Shown: positions 115-32,396 of the stretch, one piece after another | Position numbering within the stretch: the stretch's first letter is position 1 | Layout: each line of letters opens with the position of its first letter | DNA from: a virus | Length of the DNA stretch: 32,396 nt | Virus record (IMG/VR): IMGVR_UViG_3300020463_000004 | Coordinates: 1-32,396 of that record | Direction: 5' to 3' (one strand) | Position numbers and translations under genes: made by a program | Notes under the pieces: generated by a model | Databases searched by the model: none | Told to the model about the DNA's origin: nothing | Seen by the model: the letters and a program-made list of their open reading frames with translations, nothing else

Positions 115-423
115 ATGAAACAGATAACACAACAAGACAAATTGGAAACATTACTAACCAAGATGTCAGAGGGATTGATACAAATACACAAAGAGACTTG
201 GCCAGACAAAGAGATGATCAAAGTGTACGCCAACAGACGATGGGGCAACAGATATCACAGAGGCTATAGGTTCAGTTGGATGATCACACACAAGGAAGCA
301 CCAATGGGTTATTGGCAGGACATCACCCTGTTGAGAAGAGAGGATCTGATCCAGGCCAACCAGACAATGATGAAGTTGGGATTTGAATTTAAGTCTACGC
401 CTTGGGTGGGACCTAACGGTTGA
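115..423 (+). CDS. Hypothetical early protein, 102 aa
   Basis: I do not recognise this protein. It is basic and rich in aromatic residues, with a dense middle (NRRWGNRYHRGYRFSW) that could bind nucleic acid; no catalytic motif or membrane segment is visible. An in-frame TTG at 82 is rejected as start because it is the first triplet of the P2 -35 box; ATG 115 coincides with the predicted transcription start, so the mRNA from P2 would be leaderless, while the longer transcript from P1 also lacks a Shine-Dalgarno site. The TGA stop (421-423) is embedded in the -35 box of the next promoter. Codon use (many ACA, CAG, AGA) matches the rest of the genome, which supports real coding. Confidence 0.65.
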   Translation: MKQITQQDKLETLLTKMSEGLIQIHKETWPDKEMIKVYANRRWGNRYHRGYRFSWMITHKEAPMGYWQDITLLRREDLIQANQTMMKLGFEFKSTPWVGPNG

Positions 424-448
424 CAGCCTGGCGAGGGTGTAGTATAAT
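420..448 (+). promoter_or_regulatory. Perfect-consensus sigma70 promoter P3
   Basis: TTGACA at 420-425, 17-base spacer, TATAAT at 443-448. All twelve consensus bases are present. The -35 box overlaps the stop codon of the upstream gene. No start codon with a usable RBS follows before the next promoter at 559, so the product is probably an RNA. Confidence 0.85.
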
Positions 449-453
449 ATAGG

Positions 454-540
454 CAGGGGACGGTTGTCTACCGTGGCCAATATCCAGATGGCCGTCCCCT
501 GAATTCAGGCTGGCGTGGTGCCCTAGTTCAATTGCAAAAA
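454..540 (+). ncRNA. Candidate structured small RNA 1
   Basis: Directly after promoter P3 comes a perfect 10-bp stem, CAGGGGACGG at 454-463 with CCGTCCCCTG at 492-501, enclosing 28 bases. A second short GGC/GCC pairing follows at 507-525. There is no convincing ORF between 424 and 782. The transcript begins with CAGGGG close behind the -10, a feature shared with the other candidate RNAs at about 595, 30940 and 32200. The 3' end is not defined: I see no strong terminator before the next promoter. It resembles no RNA family I know. Confidence 0.5.
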
Positions 541-3577: not shown

Positions 3578-3919
3578 ATGCCAACAAAGGCCGCTATTGT
3601 CACAAGAGGACAATCTACAAGTACCATATCAAGTAATAATCTCAACAAAGGTGCCGCTCTAAGTTTTGAAGATATTGACTCAACACTGATCAATCTTCGT
3701 GATGCCACTTTTGGCATACAAGCGGATGATTCAACCACACAGAACATTTCACAAGGCGATACCATAATCGTCAAAGGTGGCACAGGGGTCACAACTTCAA
3801 CATCAGGTTCAACTGTGACTATAAACTCCACGGCAGACGCCGCAATAAATATTGACGGTGGAGATGCCGCCAGCACATATGGTGGACTTACAAGCATAAA
3901 CGGAGGAGACGCAACATAA
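3578..3919 (+). CDS. Short tail-fibre N-terminal-domain protein, 113 aa
   Basis: Residues 1-55 repeat the docking-type domain of the 2923 gene (AIVTRGQSTSTISS...LSFEDIDSTLINLRDATFGIQADDST). After that the chain runs through Gly/Thr-rich strands (VKGGTGVTTSTSGSTVTI) and stops after INGGDAT, so it has an attachment domain but almost no shaft. Its TAA overlaps the ATG of the giant fibre at 3919, which points to translational coupling. It may be an adaptor for the 3919 fibre, or a fibre gene cut short by rearrangement. AAGGAG precedes ATG 3578. Confidence 0.75.
   Translation: MPTKAAIVTRGQSTSTISSNNLNKGAALSFEDIDSTLINLRDATFGIQADDSTTQNISQGDTIIVKGGTGVTTSTSGSTVTINSTADAAINIDGGDAASTYGGLTSINGGDAT
3844..3851 (+). 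promoter_or_regulatory. Intragenic AATAAATA, possible late promoter for the giant fibre
   Basis: The motif lies inside the coding sequence of the 3578 gene, 67 bases before the fibre start at 3919. It may be functional or simply an Asn-Ile codon pair; it has no leader hairpin. Confidence 0.25.
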
Positions 3920-6900
3920 TGCCAACACAGATTCAATTAAGAAGAGACACAGCCGCAGATTGGACATCCAACAACCCCACACTAGCACAGGGTGAGTTTG
4001 GTTGGGAGTCAGACACAAACAGATTCAAGATAGGTGACGGTTCCAGCAACTGGCAAAGCCTTGCCTATGCTTCAGATGGCGACACAGCAGGCATAACTTT
4101 CGTTGGTGATGATTCATCAGGAACAACAGTAAGTCAAAACGAAACATTCAAGATAGCAGGCACACAGAACATTTCAGCGGCAGTAAGTGGTGACACACTG
4201 ACCCTAACTGGTCCTGATCTATCAACATACCTTACAGCGTCAAGTTCTACAACACTGACGAACAAGAGCATAGACGCAGACAACAACACAATTTCAAACA
4301 TAGAAGTTGACAATCTTAAATCAGGTGTACTAGACACAGACATAAGTTCAGTGGCTGGCACGGACACCACTCTGGCATCAGCCAAGGCGATCAAGACATA
4401 CGTTGATGCACAGATACAGACCAAAGACAACACAGACGAGATCACAGAAGGATCTTCAAATTTATATTACACAGATGCAAGAGCACAGGCAGTTTCAATA
4501 AACAATCTTTCTGAAGACACAACACCGCAACTGGGTGGCAATCTTGACCTTAACGGCAATGACATAGTCACGACTTCAAATGCTGACATTGAGTTGGCGG
4601 CAAATGGAACAGGTAAGGTTTTAGTAAAAGGAAACACCAATCCAGGCACAATAGTTTTAAATTGTGAAAGCAACTCACACGGACAGACAATTAAATCACA
4701 ACCACATAGTGCTTCTGTCACAAACACATTAACACTGCCAGCAGGTGGTGACCAAGAGATTGTTGGAACAGCGGCAACACAGACATTCACAAACAAGACA
4801 TTTGATGCTGAAGGCACAGGCAATGCCCTATCAAATGTGGATGTGGCAAATTTAAAATCAGGTGTGTTGGACACTGACATCAGTTCAGTATCAGGCAGTG
4901 ACGACACAATCGCTTCTGCAAAAGCAATCAAGACCTATGTAGATGCACAAATAGCCACAAAAGATAATTCAGATGAGATAACAGAAGGTTCTACCAACCT
5001 ATATTTCACAAACGCAAGAGCGGATGCGAGAATAACAAACGCATTGAAAGATGAAGACACTATGTCTTCAGACAGTGCCACTCACGTGCCATCACAACAG
5101 TCTGTGAAAGCATACGTAGACGCACAGGATGCCGCGATAGCATCAGACACATTGACATTGACGAACAAAACCATAGATGCCAATGGTACAGGAAACAGTA
5201 TCACAAATTTAGAAGTGGCAGACCTTGCTTCTGGTGTGTTGGACACAGACATATCAAGTGTTTCAGCATCAGACAACACCATTGCTTCTGCAAAAGCAAT
5301 CAAAACTTATGTAGATGCACAGATAGCCACAAAAGACGCATTAAGCGAATTGAGTGGTGACACAGATGACGTCAGCGAAGGGTCAAGCAATCTTTATTTC
5401 ACAAATGCAAGGGCAGACGCTAGGATAACAAATGCTCTAGTTGATGAAGACAATATGTCTTCTAACTCAGCAACACAGATTCCATCACAGCAGTCAGTGA
5501 AAGCATATGTTGACGCAGAGGTGGCAGGCGTTGTTGACTCAGCACCAAGTGCCTTGAACACATTGAATGAACTGGCGGCGGCATTGGGAGATGACTCAAA
5601 CTTCGCCACAACAACTTCAACATCATTGGGCAACAGATTAAGAATAGATGTCAACAACCAAGGATTGACTTCTACACAGAAAACAAATGCCGCGACAAAC
5701 CTAGGTTTGAACACAGTGGCAACTTCAGGTGCATATTCAGACCTTTCTGGAACACCAACCATACCAAGCAACAACAACCAACTGACAAATGGTGCAGGTT
5801 TCATAACAGATTCAAACATAACGGTTGTTGGTGATGATTCATCTGGTGTCACATTCAGCACAAAGAACAATGACAACTTGAAGATAGCAGGTGGTACTAA
5901 CATAACAACTGCGGTATCAGGAGACACAGTGACGATCACTGGTCCTGACACATCAGGTTTCATAACAGCAAGTTCAACAACCACATTGACCAACAAAACA
6001 TTTGATGTTGAAGGTACTGGCAACAGTATATCAAACATTGATGTGGCGGACCTAAAGTCAGGTGTGTTGGACACAGACATTTCAAGTGTCAGTGGCAGTG
6101 ATGACACAATAGCATCAGCCAAAGCGATTAAAACATACGTTGATGCACAGATAGCCACAAAAGATAATTCAGACGAGATAACAGAAGGATCAACGAACTT
6201 ATATTTCACGAATGCAAGGGCAGATGCGAGAATCACGAATGCACTCAAAGACGAAGATAATTTTGCTTCAGACAGTGCAACTCACGTGCCATCACAGCAA
6301 TCAGTCAAGGCCTATGTGGATGCACAAGATGCCAACATAGCCAGTGACACCCTAACATTCACAAACAAAACATTTGATGTAGAGGCAACAGGAAACAGTA
6401 TTTCAAACATAGATGTTGCTGATCTAAAATCAGGTGTACTAGACACAGATATTTCAAGTGTGGCTGGTACAGATACTACACTTGCTTCTGCAAAAGCGAT
6501 CAAGACCTATGTAGATGCACAAATAGCCACAAAAGATAATTCAGATGAAATCACAGAAGGTTCATCTAACCTTTACTTCACAAACACAAGGGCAGATGCT
6601 AGGATCACTGCGGCGTTGATTGACGAAGATGATATGTCATCCAACAGTGCAACTAGATTACCTAGTCAACAGAGTGTCAAGGCATACGTTGACGCAGGTG
6701 ACCTAAGTCTTATTGATGAAGACAATTTCTCAACAGACTCAGCAACTAGACCACCATCACAGCAATCAGTCAAGGCTTATATTGCGACACAGATAGCAAC
6801 CAAAGACAACACAGATGAAATAACAGAAGGTTCATCAAATCTATACTACACAGATGCGAGGGCACAGGCAGTATCCATAAACAACCTTTCTGAAGACTCA

Positions 6901-8706
6901 TCACCACAACTGGGTGGCGACCTTGATGTCAACGGACAAGACATTGTCACAACATCAAATGCCAACATAGAACTTGCTCCAAACGGAACAGGTAAGACAG
7001 TTTTAAAAGGAAACACGAATCCAGGAACATTGATATTCAACTGTGAAAACAACTCACACGGACAGACGGTGATAGCACAACCACACAGTGCTTCAGTCAC
7101 TAACACACTGACGTTGCCAGCAGGTGGAGATCAAGAGATTGTTGGAACCACAGCAACACAAACATTTACAAACAAAACTTTGACATCACCAGTGTTGAAC
7201 ACAGGTGTTTCAGGAACAGCAATACTAGACGAAGACAATATGGCCAGCAACAGTGCCACACAACTTGCAACACAGCAATCTATCAAAGCATATGTTGATT
7301 CAGAAGTTTCAGGTTCAGGTGGCGGTGCCGCAAACGCATTCAAAACAATATCAGTATCAGGACAAGATGATGTAGTGGCAGATTCAGCAACAGACACGTT
7401 GACTCTTGTTGCAGGTTCTAATATGACAATCACAACCAGTGCGTCAGGTGACACAATCACATTGGCCGCTTCTGGAGGAGGCAGTGGAATCACAGTACAG
7501 GAAGAGGGTTCATCACTGTCCACAGCAGGAACTACCCTTAACTTTGTTGGTTCAGGCGTCACAGCATCAGGAACAGGTGCCACAAAAACTATCACTATCA
7601 GTGGTGGCGGTGGCGGATCCACAGGTGACCTTGCCATAACAGGTTCAACAATCAGTTCACCTTCAAATGGTGACCTTACTCTTGAAACATCAGGCACAGG
7701 TGGCATAGTGCTCAACCCTGCAGGCACATTTGCAGATTACAGAGAAGATGGGTATATGTCTGCCGCAACCACGGCAACAAGAAATGCAGGTATGACCAGG
7801 ATTGCAGATTACAAAGAGCAAACCAACGGTGAAAGAGCATATAGAAATAATTCAATGTACATAAAACTGACAGGATCAGATTCCAGCAGTTCAAATTGTA
7901 GATGGAGAAACCAATTCAACGCACAGGTTGACCAAAACGGTCTTGACTCAACGAACACAGGAACCAGTCGTGGTATAGGACATTTCTTCAACACAGCCAC
8001 ACTTAACACTTCTAGTCACGGTGTACAAGTTGGAACACACAACGGTATTAGTTTATGGTCAGAGGTTGGTGGATACAGCACTGATCTGCAGAATGGTGAC
8101 ATCACGCAAACAAATCAATTTGGTGGTAGATTTGCCATAGTGCAATCAGCACCATCAGGCAAGACAACAACAGTCACTAACGCCTATGGTATGCACGTTC
8201 GTGGTAGCACTGATGGTAGTGGAACAAAAAATCTTACAAACGAATACCTTTTCTATGCAGATAAAGGTGGCATCACACCAAGTGGTGAAAACTACAACTT
8301 CTATTCAGAAGATGAAAGTGCCAATGAACGGTTTGGTGCAATAAAGAAATTCAATGAAGGTGCATACACGGCATCACATTCAGGCAACGGCACATACACA
8401 GTGGACTTTGACAACGGAAACTTACAGATTGTGACCCTTGGTGCCAACATAACAAGTTTCACGATGAGCAACTTCCCAACCAGCACAACACAGTCAGTTG
8501 GTGTCACTCTCTATCTTGTGCAAGACGGCACAGGTTCAAGAACAATGACATTTTCACCAGGCAGTAGTGAGACATTCAAGTTCGCAAACGGTGCCAATTC
8601 AAGTTCAGTAAGTAGTGCAAATGACATACAGACGGTTTACATATTTTCAAGATACAACGGATCAAGCAACACTTACTATTGGACACTTGGTCCAGTTTAT
8701 AGTTAA
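3919..8706 (+). CDS. Giant repetitive tail fibre, 1595 aa
   Basis: The N-terminus (IQLRRDTAADWTSNNPTLAQ, then GEFGWESDTNRFKIGDG and NWQSLAY) matches the N-terminal domain of the Bordetella phage major tropism determinant (Mtd), which attaches fibres to tails. Residues of about 130-1120 are built from repeated modules: SGVLDTDISSV, ASAKAIKTYVDAQI, DEITEGSSNLYFTNARADAR and PSQQSVKAYVDA, a shaft of short beta segments typical of trimeric fibres. The C-terminal part from about residue 1270 is different, with a last domain (LQIVTLGANITSFTMSNFP...VQDGTGSRTMTF) also seen at the end of the 10379 protein. It is the longest gene of the genome and the likely main host-recognition fibre. Its start overlaps the upstream stop (TAATG). 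Confidence 0.85.
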   Translation: MPTQIQLRRDTAADWTSNNPTLAQGEFGWESDTNRFKIGDGSSNWQSLAYASDGDTAGITFVGDDSSGTTVSQNETFKIAGTQNISAAVSGDTLTLTGPDLSTYLTASSSTTLTNKSIDADNNTISNIEVDNLKSGVLDTDISSVAGTDTTLASAKAIKTYVDAQIQTKDNTDEITEGSSNLYYTDARAQAVSINNLSEDTTPQLGGNLDLNGNDIVTTSNADIELAANGTGKVLVKGNTNPGTIVLNCESNSHGQTIKSQPHSASVTNTLTLPAGGDQEIVGTAATQTFTNKTFDAEGTGNALSNVDVANLKSGVLDTDISSVSGSDDTIASAKAIKTYVDAQIATKDNSDEITEGSTNLYFTNARADARITNALKDEDTMSSDSATHVPSQQSVKAYVDAQDAAIASDTLTLTNKTIDANGTGNSITNLEVADLASGVLDTDISSVSASDNTIASAKAIKTYVDAQIATKDALSELSGDTDDVSEGSSNLYFTNARADARITNALVDEDNMSSNSATQIPSQQSVKAYVDAEVAGVVDSAPSALNTLNELAAALGDDSNFATTTSTSLGNRLRIDVNNQGLTSTQKTNAATNLGLNTVATSGAYSDLSGTPTIPSNNNQLTNGAGFITDSNITVVGDDSSGVTFSTKNNDNLKIAGGTNITTAVSGDTVTITGPDTSGFITASSTTTLTNKTFDVEGTGNSISNIDVADLKSGVLDTDISSVSGSDDTIASAKAIKTYVDAQIATKDNSDEITEGSTNLYFTNARADARITNALKDEDNFASDSATHVPSQQSVKAYVDAQDANIASDTLTFTNKTFDVEATGNSISNIDVADLKSGVLDTDISSVAGTDTTLASAKAIKTYVDAQIATKDNSDEITEGSSNLYFTNTRADARITAALIDEDDMSSNSATRLPSQQSVKAYVDAGDLSLIDEDNFSTDSATRPPSQQSVKAYIATQIATKDNTDEITEGSSNLYYTDARAQAVSINNLSEDSSPQLGGDLDVNGQDIVTTSNANIELAPNGTGKTVLKGNTNPGTLIFNCENNSHGQTVIAQPHSASVTNTLTLPAGGDQEIVGTTATQTFTNKTLTSPVLNTGVSGTAILDEDNMASNSATQLATQQSIKAYVDSEVSGSGGGAANAFKTISVSGQDDVVADSATDTLTLVAGSNMTITTSASGDTITLAASGGGSGITVQEEGSSLSTAGTTLNFVGSGVTASGTGATKTITISGGGGGSTGDLAITGSTISSPSNGDLTLETSGTGGIVLNPAGTFADYREDGYMSAATTATRNAGMTRIADYKEQTNGERAYRNNSMYIKLTGSDSSSSNCRWRNQFNAQVDQNGLDSTNTGTSRGIGHFFNTATLNTSSHGVQVGTHNGISLWSEVGGYSTDLQNGDITQTNQFGGRFAIVQSAPSGKTTTVTNAYGMHVRGSTDGSGTKNLTNEYLFYADKGGITPSGENYNFYSEDESANERFGAIKKFNEGAYTASHSGNGTYTVDFDNGNLQIVTLGANITSFTMSNFPTSTTQSVGVTLYLVQDGTGSRTMTFSPGSSETFKFANGANSSSVSSANDIQTVYIFSRYNGSSNTYYWTLGPVYS
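4318..7280 (+). repeat. In-frame repeat array coding the fibre shaft
   Basis: A unit beginning TCAGGTGT[A/G][C/T]T[A/G]GACAC[A/T]GA recurs at about 4321, 4858, 5229, 6058 and 6428. Blocks encoding ATKDNSDEITEGS and SQQSVKAYVDA recur between and beyond them, some nearly identical at DNA level. The irregular spacing (about 370 to 830 bases) suggests growth by unequal exchange of one or two modules. The repeats keep the reading frame throughout. Confidence 0.85.
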
Positions 8707-30085: not shown

Positions 30086-30113
30086 TTGACATTTCAGGTG
30101 TTTAGCATATATA
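30086..30113 (+). promoter_or_regulatory. Sigma70-type promoter P7
   Basis: TTGACA at 30086-30091, 16-base spacer, TATATA at 30108-30113 (or TATACT at 30110-30115 with an 18-base spacer). It opens a 0.5-kb region with little convincing coding. Confidence 0.65.
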
Positions 30114-30120
30114 CTTGTGA

Positions 30121-30434
30121 ATATGGCAAGACAATTACAGCCACGGCACACATAATTTCCCAAACTGGAGATCATAATGGCAAGGGTCTCCCACCAGCGA
30201 CAAAGTTGTATCCTGTCGCACAAACGGTGGCAAACGATACCTGAAGGCACGGTGACATAGGCAAGCGGTCCGTGAAAAGTAGGTGGATGCAATTCTTGTG
30301 GGACTAATCAAGTCGCAGGAGGACGGCGTAGGACAACGAGAGAAGTCCTATTGCCGTTCTTGTGAGTTCAAAATCAAGACGAAGTCAATGAAGATGAGCA
30401 CAGCGAATCTTCAGGTGGCGACTGCCGCCTTTAT
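30121..30434 (+). ncRNA. Candidate 300-nt structured RNA
   Basis: Downstream of promoter P7 several strong hairpins follow one another: CCACC (30191-30195) with GGTGG (30226-30230) around GCGACA (30197-30202) with TGTCGC (30214-30219); ACGGC-GT-AGGAC (30323-30334) with GTCCT-ATT-GCCGT (30345-30357); and GGTGGC (30414-30419) with GCCGCC (30424-30429) followed by TTTAT, a weak terminator. Only a 27-codon frame (30177-30260, CTGGAG before it) and a 69-codon GTG-started frame (30283-30492) lie here. The density of compensating stems suggests an RNA gene, but small-peptide coding cannot be excluded. Confidence 0.45.
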
Positions 30435-30492
30435 AAATACGAGTGCGTTGGGGTGTTGTCTTTACACTCCTTGCAGAATGTTTGACTTATAA
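30283..30492 (+). CDS. Doubtful small Cys-containing protein, 69 aa
   Basis: A GTG-started frame encoding REKSYCRSCEFKIKTKSMKM, a pattern reminiscent of small zinc-ribbon proteins (YCxxC), and ending GCCLYTPCRMFDL. Against it: no Shine-Dalgarno site at usable distance, the region folds into strong hairpins, the frame contains an exact TATAAATA, and codon use departs from that of the neighbouring phage genes. Kept as a possible gene only. Confidence 0.25.
   Translation: MDAILVGLIKSQEDGVGQREKSYCRSCEFKIKTKSMKMSTANLQVATAAFINTSALGCCLYTPCRMFDL
30432..30439 (+). promoter_or_regulatory. Exact T4-type late promoter L8 (TATAAATA)
   Basis: The only perfect TATAAATA I found in the genome. With T4 spacing transcription would start at about 30445, exactly the first base of the stem GCGTTGGGGTG (30445-30455). 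No protein gene with an RBS follows it, so it would produce a structured RNA. Confidence 0.55.
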
Positions 30493-30600
30493 GTCACCCA
30501 AACGCAGTTCGTTCTAATGACATTTAGAACCCCTAGGCGTGGAGAGGTTCCATTCAACATATTGCCATATTTTGATCCCCTCTCCACACCTCTCAAAGTA
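30445..30600 (+). ncRNA. Hairpin-dense non-coding block; candidate late RNA, packaging site or origin
   Basis: The block holds, in order: GCGTTGGGGTG (30445-30455) with CACCCAAACGC (30495-30505), one mismatch; the palindrome GACTTATAAGTC (30484-30495); GTTCTAA (30511-30517) with TTAGAAC (30524-30530), perfect; and GTGGAGAGG (30539-30547) with CCTCTCCAC (30579-30587), perfect. Four inverted repeats in 145 bases in the largest gene-poor stretch fit a structured RNA, a packaging signal or an origin of replication. A frame at 30517-30777 crosses the hairpins and has no RBS. Confidence 0.5.
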
Positions 30601-30630
30601 GATCTAAACCACACGTTGTATCGCACCAGG

Positions 30631-30664: not shown

Positions 30665-30895
30665 ATGAAGAATTACAAGTTAGCCCCCGTGAAAAGTCTA
30701 AAAAATATGTATGCGTCCGTTCACGGACAAGGCTTCCCCAAGCAACAAAAGGCGGACACATACAGATCAGCGAGTAGTATGTGGGAGGAAAGTGATGGTG
30801 GCAACCAGGCACTAGAAATGAGGACGCGATCATATCAATGGGCCCCCTGCATACGAAACCTGATAGAAAAACCCCCATATTATGCGACTTTTTAG
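30665..30895 (+). CDS. Possible leaderless early protein, 76 aa
   Basis: ATG 30665 falls exactly on the expected start of the P8 transcript, so any product would be translated without a leader. The chain is basic and Ser/Tyr rich (MKNYKLAPVKSLKNMYASVH, later RTRSYQWAPCIRNLIEKPPY), with no recognisable domain. Doubts: CCC, GCC and other codons rare elsewhere are frequent, a GTCCG/CGGAC hairpin lies within (30715-30728), and the last codons coincide with the element TTATGCGACTTTTT that precedes promoter P9. It may instead be another RNA gene. Confidence 0.4.
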   Translation: MKNYKLAPVKSLKNMYASVHGQGFPKQQKADTYRSASSMWEESDGGNQALEMRTRSYQWAPCIRNLIEKPPYYATF

Positions 30896-30927
30896 GAGGT
30901 TGACACATATAGATCCTGTGTTATTAT
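30880..30927 (+). promoter_or_regulatory. Sigma70-type promoter P9 with upstream element
   Basis: TTGACA at 30900-30905, 16-base spacer ending in TGT, TATTAT at 30922-30927. The 14-base element TTATGCGACTTTTT (30880-30893) stands six bases before the -35; the same element at the same distance precedes P10 (31042-31055). Confidence 0.75.
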
Positions 30928-30933
30928 TAAAAC

Positions 30934-31034
30934 TTATGCAGGGGAGTGCTAATCCGCTTTGATCCTGTAGATAAAACTTTTTCATATAGTTTTATCTTCT
31001 TTCGCAGGGCCCCCTTAATTGGGGGCTTTTTTTT
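30934..31034 (+). ncRNA. Stand-alone small RNA gene with promoter and terminator
   Basis: A complete transcription unit of about 100 bases with no ORF: promoter P9, then CAGGGG (30939-30944) able to pair with CCTG (30964-30967), a perfect nine-bp hairpin GATAAAACT (30970-30978) with AGTTTTATC (30988-30996), and a strong terminator at 31009-31034. The unpaired AGTGCTAATCCGC between the first arms is a candidate target-binding loop. Not a known family to me, and no tRNA fold is possible. Confidence 0.75.
31009..31034 (+). terminator. Intrinsic terminator of the small RNA
   Basis: GCCCCC (31009-31014), loop TTAATT, GGGGGC (31021-31026), then eight T residues (31027-31034). The clearest terminator in the window. 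Confidence 0.92.
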
Positions 31035-31041
31035 GCCCATT

Positions 31042-31089
31042 TTATGCGACTTTTTGCCAGGTTGACGCTATCCTATGCCGTGTTATAAT
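31042..31089 (+). promoter_or_regulatory. Sigma70-type promoter P10 with upstream element
   Basis: TTATGCGACTTTTT at 31042-31055, TTGACG at 31062-31067, 16-base spacer ending in TGT, TATAAT at 31084-31089. The leader up to the ATG at 31137 is largely repeated at P11. Confidence 0.85.
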
Positions 31090-31136
31090 GAAGTATGTTT
31101 AACCAGATATCAACACTAACAAAAGGGAGGATATAG

Positions 31137-31316
31137 ATGGGACAGGCAAAGAGAAAAATACCTTTCCTGAAGAAATTGGCAGAGAAATTGTATCGTGAAA
31201 GACGAGCGACAGCAACAGGCGTTGGCGTTGAAGATCTACGAGAGATAGGCCTGCCAGAAGATGAATGGCAATGGATCAAGCAAGAAATAATGAGATTAGA
31301 CAAGGAGCCAGCATAA
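31137..31316 (+). CDS. Small early protein with MGQAKR N-terminus, 59 aa
   Basis: ATG 31137 with GGGAGG at 31125-31130 opens a 59-residue chain: a basic start (MGQAKRKIPFLKKLAEKLYR, then ERRATATG) and an acidic end (EDLREIGLPEDEWQWIKQEI). The first six residues, the RBS, the leader and the promoter are shared with the gene at 31430, so the two genes have arisen by a partial duplication or share a mobile expression cassette. The rest of the protein does not resemble its partner. Function unknown; a small helical host-interaction factor is possible. Confidence 0.75.
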   Translation: MGQAKRKIPFLKKLAEKLYRERRATATGVGVEDLREIGLPEDEWQWIKQEIMRLDKEPA

Positions 31317-31325
31317 TGCCAGAAA

Positions 31326-31345
31326 GTGTTGTATTTTTACAACAC
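31326..31345 (+). terminator. Hairpin between the two MGQAKR genes
   Basis: GTGTTGTA (31326-31333) pairs perfectly with TACAACAC (31338-31345) around four T residues. No T-run follows, so it is a weak terminator or an mRNA-stabilising hairpin. Confidence 0.4.
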
Positions 31346-31354
31346 CTGGCCAGG

Positions 31355-31382
31355 TTGACGCAGTTGGAACCTGTGTTATAAT
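31355..31382 (+). promoter_or_regulatory. Sigma70-type promoter P11
   Basis: TTGACG at 31355-31360, 16-base spacer ending in CCTGTGT, TATAAT at 31377-31382, followed by GAAGTATGTTTAA as at P10. Confidence 0.85.
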
Positions 31383-31429
31383 GAAGTATGTTTAATTTAA
31401 TAAAACTTATACAAAAAGGGAGGATATAG

Positions 31430-32116
31430 ATGGGACAGGCAAAGAGAAGAGGCAGTTTAGAAGACAGGATACGACAGGCAACAATGCCCAGTTTCCACAG
31501 GGAACTGAAGACCAAAGTCACGGCAGGTGCATTGAAGATCACATATGATCGTTCAGGTCTAACAGATCAACAATGTAAATTCGCAGACGACGGCATCGCA
31601 GGCTTGATGCCGCAACAACACAAATGGGGTGACTTTAAACATCTACGAGGCACGGTGCATTTTGGCACCGCCAAAGACTGTGGCGCTATGATGGTGGAAT
31701 TGACGAAGAAGCAGTTGAAGGAGTGGCCAGCACTGGTACAGGAATACAAGGATATGTTCTTGTCGCAGTATTGGGCGACCACAAATCAACCAGTGCATAT
31801 CAGCAAAACCTATTTGGACAAGATCATCAAAGGCACGGCACCACAACCAATTGGCGCTAAATTGTCAGATGTGCCAGCGAATCCATACACCAATTTCGCG
31901 GTAGCAGTGGCCTACACACATAGATCAATGCAGGTAGCGAAGCAGAGTATTGGTGACCTATGTCCGCCAGAAGCAACGCCAGGCAACAGCCTATACAACA
32001 CTGAATTCATCGCAAAGGTCAAAGAAGCATTGTCATATCTGGGCACCTATGTCAAATGTGATTGGCAACCTGGTAAGATGATCACAACCAGATTAGAGAA
32101 AGCAGATCTACAATAA
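31430..32116 (+). CDS. Early protein with MGQAKRR N-terminus, 228 aa
   Basis: ATG 31430 with GGGAGG at 31418-31423. The start MGQAKRRGSLEDRIRQATMP is a form I associate with several phage and plasmid proteins of unknown role. The rest has a globular alpha-beta look (GALKITYDRSGLTDQQCKFA, HLRGTVHFGTAKDCGAMMVE, LTKKQLKEWPALVQEYKDMF) and a basic C-terminus. I see no helicase, nuclease, polymerase or HTH motif. It is the longest gene of its arc besides the metallopeptidase-like one and has its own near-perfect promoter, so an important early function is likely but cannot be named. Confidence 0.8.
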   Translation: MGQAKRRGSLEDRIRQATMPSFHRELKTKVTAGALKITYDRSGLTDQQCKFADDGIAGLMPQQHKWGDFKHLRGTVHFGTAKDCGAMMVELTKKQLKEWPALVQEYKDMFLSQYWATTNQPVHISKTYLDKIIKGTAPQPIGAKLSDVPANPYTNFAVAVAYTHRSMQVAKQSIGDLCPPEATPGNSLYNTEFIAKVKEALSYLGTYVKCDWQPGKMITTRLEKADLQ

Positions 32117-32319: not shown

Positions 32320-32396
32320 CCGTGCATTTACGGTTGACACAATGGCGATTTGTGTTAATATATTAATATAATCCTACCGTTCTGACCAAATTATCA
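32320..32396. repeat. Terminal direct repeat, right copy
   Basis: Identical to bases 1-77 and ending inside the region between promoters P1 and P2. It closes the genome to a 32,319-bp circle and should not be counted twice. Confidence 0.9.

Follow-up and report, generated by a model that had tools for sequence, protein, structure and literature searches.

Phage-encoded regulatory small RNAs (sRNAs) that have been described include OOP of lambda, sar of P22, ipeX, and CfrI of the cyanophage S-PM2 (PMC12197685), and the RNA anti-CRISPRs (Racrs) look like solitary repeat units behind a predicted promoter (PMC10651486). Little is known about phage small RNAs beyond the model coliphages, and the pelagiphage-related phages of aquatic habitats are abundant. 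We describe here an element at positions 30934-31034 of a 32,396-base virus record (IMGVR_UViG_3300020463_000004, G+C 43%), the whole of which we refer to as the window. The element is like OOP, sar, ipeX, and CfrI in being a short phage transcript, here a predicted one, without a protein product. However, it differs from all four in having a fixed hairpin core within exchangeable scaffolds and no Rfam match, and from sar and CfrI in that no antisense phage target was found for it. A search of the whole window against Rfam gave no match at the gathering score, and a relaxed search (E up to 10) gave nothing convincing, the best match reaching 25.8 bits where 50 are needed; narrow literature searches found no description of this RNA. 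Because neither source holds it, the family is apparently undescribed, and it appears to be a real sRNA family of a phage lineage related to the pelagiphages.

The window ends in a direct repeat of 77 bases (1-77 is repeated at 32320-32396), and the record therefore probably represents a single complete genome, closed into a circle, of about 32.3 kb. It encodes a terminase, a portal, a tape measure, and a lambda J-like tail protein, and no replication gene was found among the 22 different window proteins, a subset of the genes, that were put to PHROGs and/or Pfam. The closest annotated relatives are the metagenome-assembled phage DSL-LC06 (52.9% for TerL), for which the name 'Nanhuiviridae' and a Pseudomonadota host have been proposed (PMC10611076), and the Pelagibacter phages HTVC112P, HTVC202P, HTVC111P, and HTVC026P (51-52% for TerL and 32-34% for the J-like protein). 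We also note a 1595-residue protein (3919-8706) with an N-terminal Mtd_N (major tropism determinant) domain, whose gene has many internal repeats at the DNA level.

Anatomy of the small RNA gene

The initial annotation described a promoter, hairpins, and a terminator at 30934-31034, and all of these are borne out (Table 1). The promoter, TTGACA-16 nt-TATTAT, scores 11/12 against the sigma-70 type and has TG preceding its second hexamer. From its position the transcript is predicted to start at about 30934, just a few bases ahead of the first stem (P1), and to terminate within the T run near 31034. This interval folds into three hairpins, including the intrinsic terminator, with a predicted energy of -35.2 kcal/mol (z = -3.81) that none of 200 shuffles equalled, and the terminator stem (31006-31029) has nine pairs followed by the T run. 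A scan of the region yielded 14 promoter-like sites where shuffled sequences gave 8.3 (sd 2.6), four of the 14 scoring 11/12; the terminator count in the region is by itself not above that of shuffles (4 against 3.6, sd 2.1).

Table 1. Positions of the small RNA gene and associated features in the window
Feature	Position	Strand	Remarks
Promoter box	30874-30927	+	Upstream element CCCATATTATGCGACTTTTT (shared), -35 TTGACA 30900-30905, -10 TATTAT 30922-30927
Small RNA, predicted	30934-31034	+	Start inferred from the -10 motif, end from the terminator
Core hairpin (P1 + P2)	30937-30969	+	Same fold in 3/3 homologues
Invariant 23 nt GGGAGTGCTAATCCGCTTTGATC	30942-30964	+	Identical in 3/3 phages
Stem 2	30969-30997	+	10-bp AU-rich hairpin
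Intrinsic terminator	31006-31034	+	AGGGCCCCC TTAATT GGGGGCTTT, then T run
Promoter of next gene (59-aa ORF 31137-31316)	31062-31089	+	From promoter scan

A direct repeat of 57 nt, 74% identical, relates the sRNA promoter box to the promoter of the next gene at 31036-31092, and we read the two promoters as diverged copies of a single box. Similar promoter boxes recur, by reading, ahead of small genes in relatives, and this recurrence, together with the next gene having its own promoter, marks the sRNA element as one putative cassette within a row of promoter cassettes.

The statement that the locus has no open reading frame is nearly correct, as the plus strand has no frame of at least 40 codons at 30934-31034. 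Plus-strand frames of 39 codons (GTG, 30946-31065), 26 codons (ATG, 30882-30962), and 27 codons (TTG, 31019-31102) overlap the sRNA, as do minus-strand frames of 51 and 37 codons. In the two homologues described below the 39-codon GTG frame stops after 20 codons (L007) and 13 codons (G001), and the peptides differ past the core; because the frame across the core stops at different points and diverges outside it, a peptide product is unlikely, and we rejected a hidden reading frame. A QGSANPL-stop frame common to the homologues was likewise set aside, as it follows from the identical bases and its ATG is absent in L007 and, by reading, in G001.

The core hairpin and its homologues

Homologues of the element were found in two other phages. 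The tail protein brought in 40 loci, of which 32 are listed with sequence beyond the gene, 23 of these being at least 1.2 kb by our own count, and among them the close relative L007 alone has the element (5092-5269 aligned, promoter included, 78%), with the same layout as the window and with CCCCCTTRATTGGGGG of the terminator retained. At the matching place in L003, L004, and L006 there is, by reading, a promoter box with a small gene directly after it. The other homologue came from an exact 16-nt scan of IMG/VR, one of whose three stretches (L043, minus strand) is part of G001, a record of 25,785 bases; a further stretch (L044) was rejected as chance. G001 is a distant relative in which shared proteins are mostly about 30-56% identical and similarly ordered, identity being higher only in short pieces of fibre and terminase. 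Its core lies in the same tail-to-fibre region and on the same strand, behind TTGACA-16-TATACT, and is preceded by a long extra 5' hairpin and followed by an unrelated terminator. All three phages have their own promoter and terminator at the element, and the three folds (z = -3.8, -5.5, and -9.0) contain the same core hairpin.

The initial annotation had suggested a search with a covariance model; over 47 sources (413 kb) the model R1 gave three matches, at 58.8-60.2 bits, and nothing else above 17.5 bits; a 17.5-bit match inside an annotated HTVC202P gene was taken as chance. When R1 was run on 14 records searched whole, G001 was the only match. Many of the relatives' records are fragments, in which absence of the element is partly uninformative. 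The core is absent from most relatives that reach far enough past the tail gene, and is therefore dispensable to the lineage.

Wider scans retained only the three known phages. An exact 20-nt pattern had no match in IMG/VR because the first bases vary, and a degenerate 19-nt pattern gave two stretches. A 15-nt scan gave 14 stretches, of which 12 were rejected with differing contexts, and a scan in which all five pairs of the second stem (P2) were free to vary gave 12 stretches and no P2 variant of the hairpin; ten of these were rejected, and look like one conserved, probably coding family that folds differently. The sole 19-nt match in a genome collection of 84,980 species (L046, a MAG contig) was discarded for its four core mismatches and unlike surroundings, and 35-nt searches of plasmids and E. 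coli gave no match. The whole 181-nt element matched 265 phage records, and the 20 of them listed match only the part with stem 2 and the terminator, which we took as chance.

The core is about 38 nt and comprises two stems. P1 pairs 30937-30943 with 30963-30969, its outermost pair forming only when the core is folded alone, and P2 pairs 30944-30948 with 30955-30959, leaving a loop, CUAAUC (30949-30954), and a bulge, UGA (30960-30962). A run of 30 nt (30939-30968) is identical between the window and G001 and is the longest exact match of the two genomes, the next, of 21 nt, being in a fibre gene. Across the three sequences all 36 pair cells of P1 and P2 are standard. Four of the seven P1 pairs are invariant, one is changed on one side, two are changed on both sides, and none is broken; this covariation, weak alone with three sequences, was matched in 58 of 500 shuffles, and slid registers score worse. 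All five P2 pairs are invariant, including G-U pairs that Watson-Crick pairs could replace, and the loop and bulge are invariant too. Outside the core, the sequence of stem 2 is rewritten in L007 with its 10 bp retained, and G001 does not have stem 2 in that form, such that the core is found in two different scaffolds, one in the window and L007 and the other in G001. The sequence-invariant hairpin is thus likely to be the working part of the sRNA, although recent transfer between the phages, and not constraint, could also explain why the core is identical.

An earlier proposal that the loop region AGTGCTAATCCGC is free for base pairing is not supported, as in the predicted fold of all three homologues P2 takes up seven of the 13 bases, leaving CUAAUC alone unpaired. 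Loss of the stems, or conservation of a hidden reading frame only, had been named as outcomes that would count against an sRNA; the stems are kept and no frame is conserved. The autonomous sRNA gene of the initial annotation is well supported. The element is framed by a promoter and a terminator, the next gene is served by another promoter, two other phages have homologues, the stems show compensatory changes, and no frame is conserved; on these grounds we consider it very probable that this is a real and free-standing phage sRNA gene.

Possible roles of the hairpin

Building on the gene anatomy, the homology, the core identity, and the exchange of scaffolds, we tentatively favor a model in which the RNA acts in trans, its hairpin titrating a host factor. 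Transcription of the sRNA gene would be by the host sigma-70 RNA polymerase, the promoter being of the same type as those of the neighboring small, probably early, genes. The 38-nt hairpin would be the working part, in which P1 tolerates compensatory change and P2, the six-base loop, and the three-base bulge are fixed, and stem 2, the 5' hairpin of G001, and the terminator would be replaceable scaffold that protects and ends the RNA. A host RNA-binding protein or nuclease may recognize the hairpin by shape and sequence together, as suggested by the conservation of both stem strands, the G-U pairs that are never replaced, and the differing scaffolds, and the RNA, if abundant, would titrate this factor during infection. 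Fixation on both stem strands is, we infer, more usual for an element recognized by a protein or ligand than for a short antisense seed. A hairpin of 38 nt held exactly across distant phages, with scaffold and neighbors changing, would offer a testable bait for the targeted host factor. The main rival in our weighing, possible but rather unlikely, is a base-pairing sRNA whose loop CUAAUC, or else its linear core, would pair with conserved host mRNAs (one or more), perhaps aided by a chaperone on the terminal U run. In its size, promoter, intrinsic terminator, and U tail the RNA resembles the classical trans sRNAs, and the invariant stretch would be accounted for by a conserved host target. There are also several sRNA models among the below-threshold Rfam matches, although this says little. 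However, the entire stem is fixed and not a seed alone, the predicted free stretch is only 6 nt, and complementarity of the core is that of shuffled cores. Against the window and G001 genomes the best duplex energy falls within the range of 15 shuffled cores, for which reason we also rejected an antisense RNA to a phage gene, and against E. coli 16S and 23S rRNA complementarity is no better than chance. With complementarity at chance in the two phage genomes and in E. coli rRNA, these comparisons do not bear out the suggestion that the RNA regulates host or helper transcripts.

The core could instead imitate the anticodon arm of tRNA-Ser(GCU), occupying a host anticodon nuclease or tRNA-modifying enzyme and protecting translation during infection. 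We hold this to be improbable; if true, such a decoy would be a new, RNA-only route of counter-defence against phage defences that attack tRNAs. A 35-nt blastn query against 50,697 phage records matched six, three of Synechococcus phage S-PM2 and one each of Synechococcus phage S-CREM1 and the Serratia phages Slocum and Kamaji. Four of the six matches are annotated as tRNA-Ser, and the other two are S-PM2 records unannotated there. The two sites that were read, in Slocum and S-PM2, are both tRNA-Ser(GCU) with the match being the anticodon arm, in register at each site. In Slocum GGAGTGCTAATCCG (14 nt) is exact, and the loop GUGCUAA, including U33, GCU, and A37, is in register. Of two shuffled queries run as controls, one gave no match and the other a single match, which is not in a tRNA, and the 64-nt second RNA described below matched six records as a query, none of them a tRNA. 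However, the E-value of 4 is alone at chance level, the six records represent few and similar tRNAs, and matches of 14 nt to one tRNA or another are, by a rough estimate, not rare. The anticodon-arm fold is 3.7 kcal/mol worse than the predicted fold in all three homologues, and outside the anticodon arm nothing is tRNA-like, the window core differing from the tRNAs of S-PM2 and Slocum in its lack of acceptor, D, and T arms and in mismatches within the would-be anticodon stem. ARAGORN detected no tRNA genes in the window or in any of 42 relatives' loci, and found the tRNA controls L047 and L048; a genome scan with the 19-nt core found no tRNA carrying it. A tRNA-like sequence is typical of attachment sites, and this likeness, with the extreme identity over a short stretch, would fit a DNA element (a recombination or attachment site, or a protein-binding site) and not an RNA. 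This is very improbable, however, as attP sites normally carry the 3' half of a tRNA, which is absent here, P1 and stem 2 change with their pairing kept, and promoter and terminator frame the core in all three phages. Improbable to much the same degree as the tRNA decoy is a leader or attenuator, with the RNA forming the 5' part of a downstream mRNA and the terminator conditionally read through. A small same-strand gene does follow in all three phages, but the following genes differ, the terminator is strong, and the promoter of the next gene lies directly past the terminator in both the window and G001 (L043:58-30); that separate promoter argues that the sRNA is not simply the leader of the 59-aa ORF. 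The least probable reading is a Racr, which would be a solitary CRISPR-repeat mimic behind a strong promoter, causing mis-assembly of Cas proteins. The core is about the size of a repeat and, like a Racr, it is short and structured and stands alone behind a promoter in a phage genome, but the genome scan with the 19-nt core pattern revealed no matching CRISPR repeat; its one match in the genome collection, for the exact pattern only, is not in an array.

Other RNA-like elements and cassettes

A second element, at window 420-512, has a 12/12 promoter (420-448) followed by a long stem, and the window seems to hold a second small RNA here. It is present in five phages including G001, being found elsewhere at L003:7437-7500, L006:6468-6532, L019:9788-9852, and L049 (minus strand, 10425-10370), and its apical TGGCCAATRT is invariant in all five. 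RNAalifold on the five sequences indicates little covariation, with two of 17 pairs changed on both sides and several broken, perhaps partly through misalignment.

At window 30086-30620 a promoter-like site precedes a stretch of roughly 500 nt that lacks a convincing gene and in which hairpins recur (e.g. GAAGATGAGCACAGCGAATCTTC). L006 retains the segment at 89%, and L003, L004, and L007 retain parts of it; it has no Rfam match and is possibly a larger structured RNA. Downstream of the sRNA gene, a 115-nt direct repeat (31041-31155 and 31334-31448, 77%) covers the promoter, 5' UTR, and first codons (MGQAKR) of two small proteins that are otherwise dissimilar, and resembles a cassette duplication. 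At a contig end in L004 (9690-9830), a promoter-like site precedes a long hairpin, GCAACAGCACACACA...TGTGTGCTGTTGC; by reading, no gene is evident there, and this hairpin resembles the 5' hairpin ahead of the G001 core.
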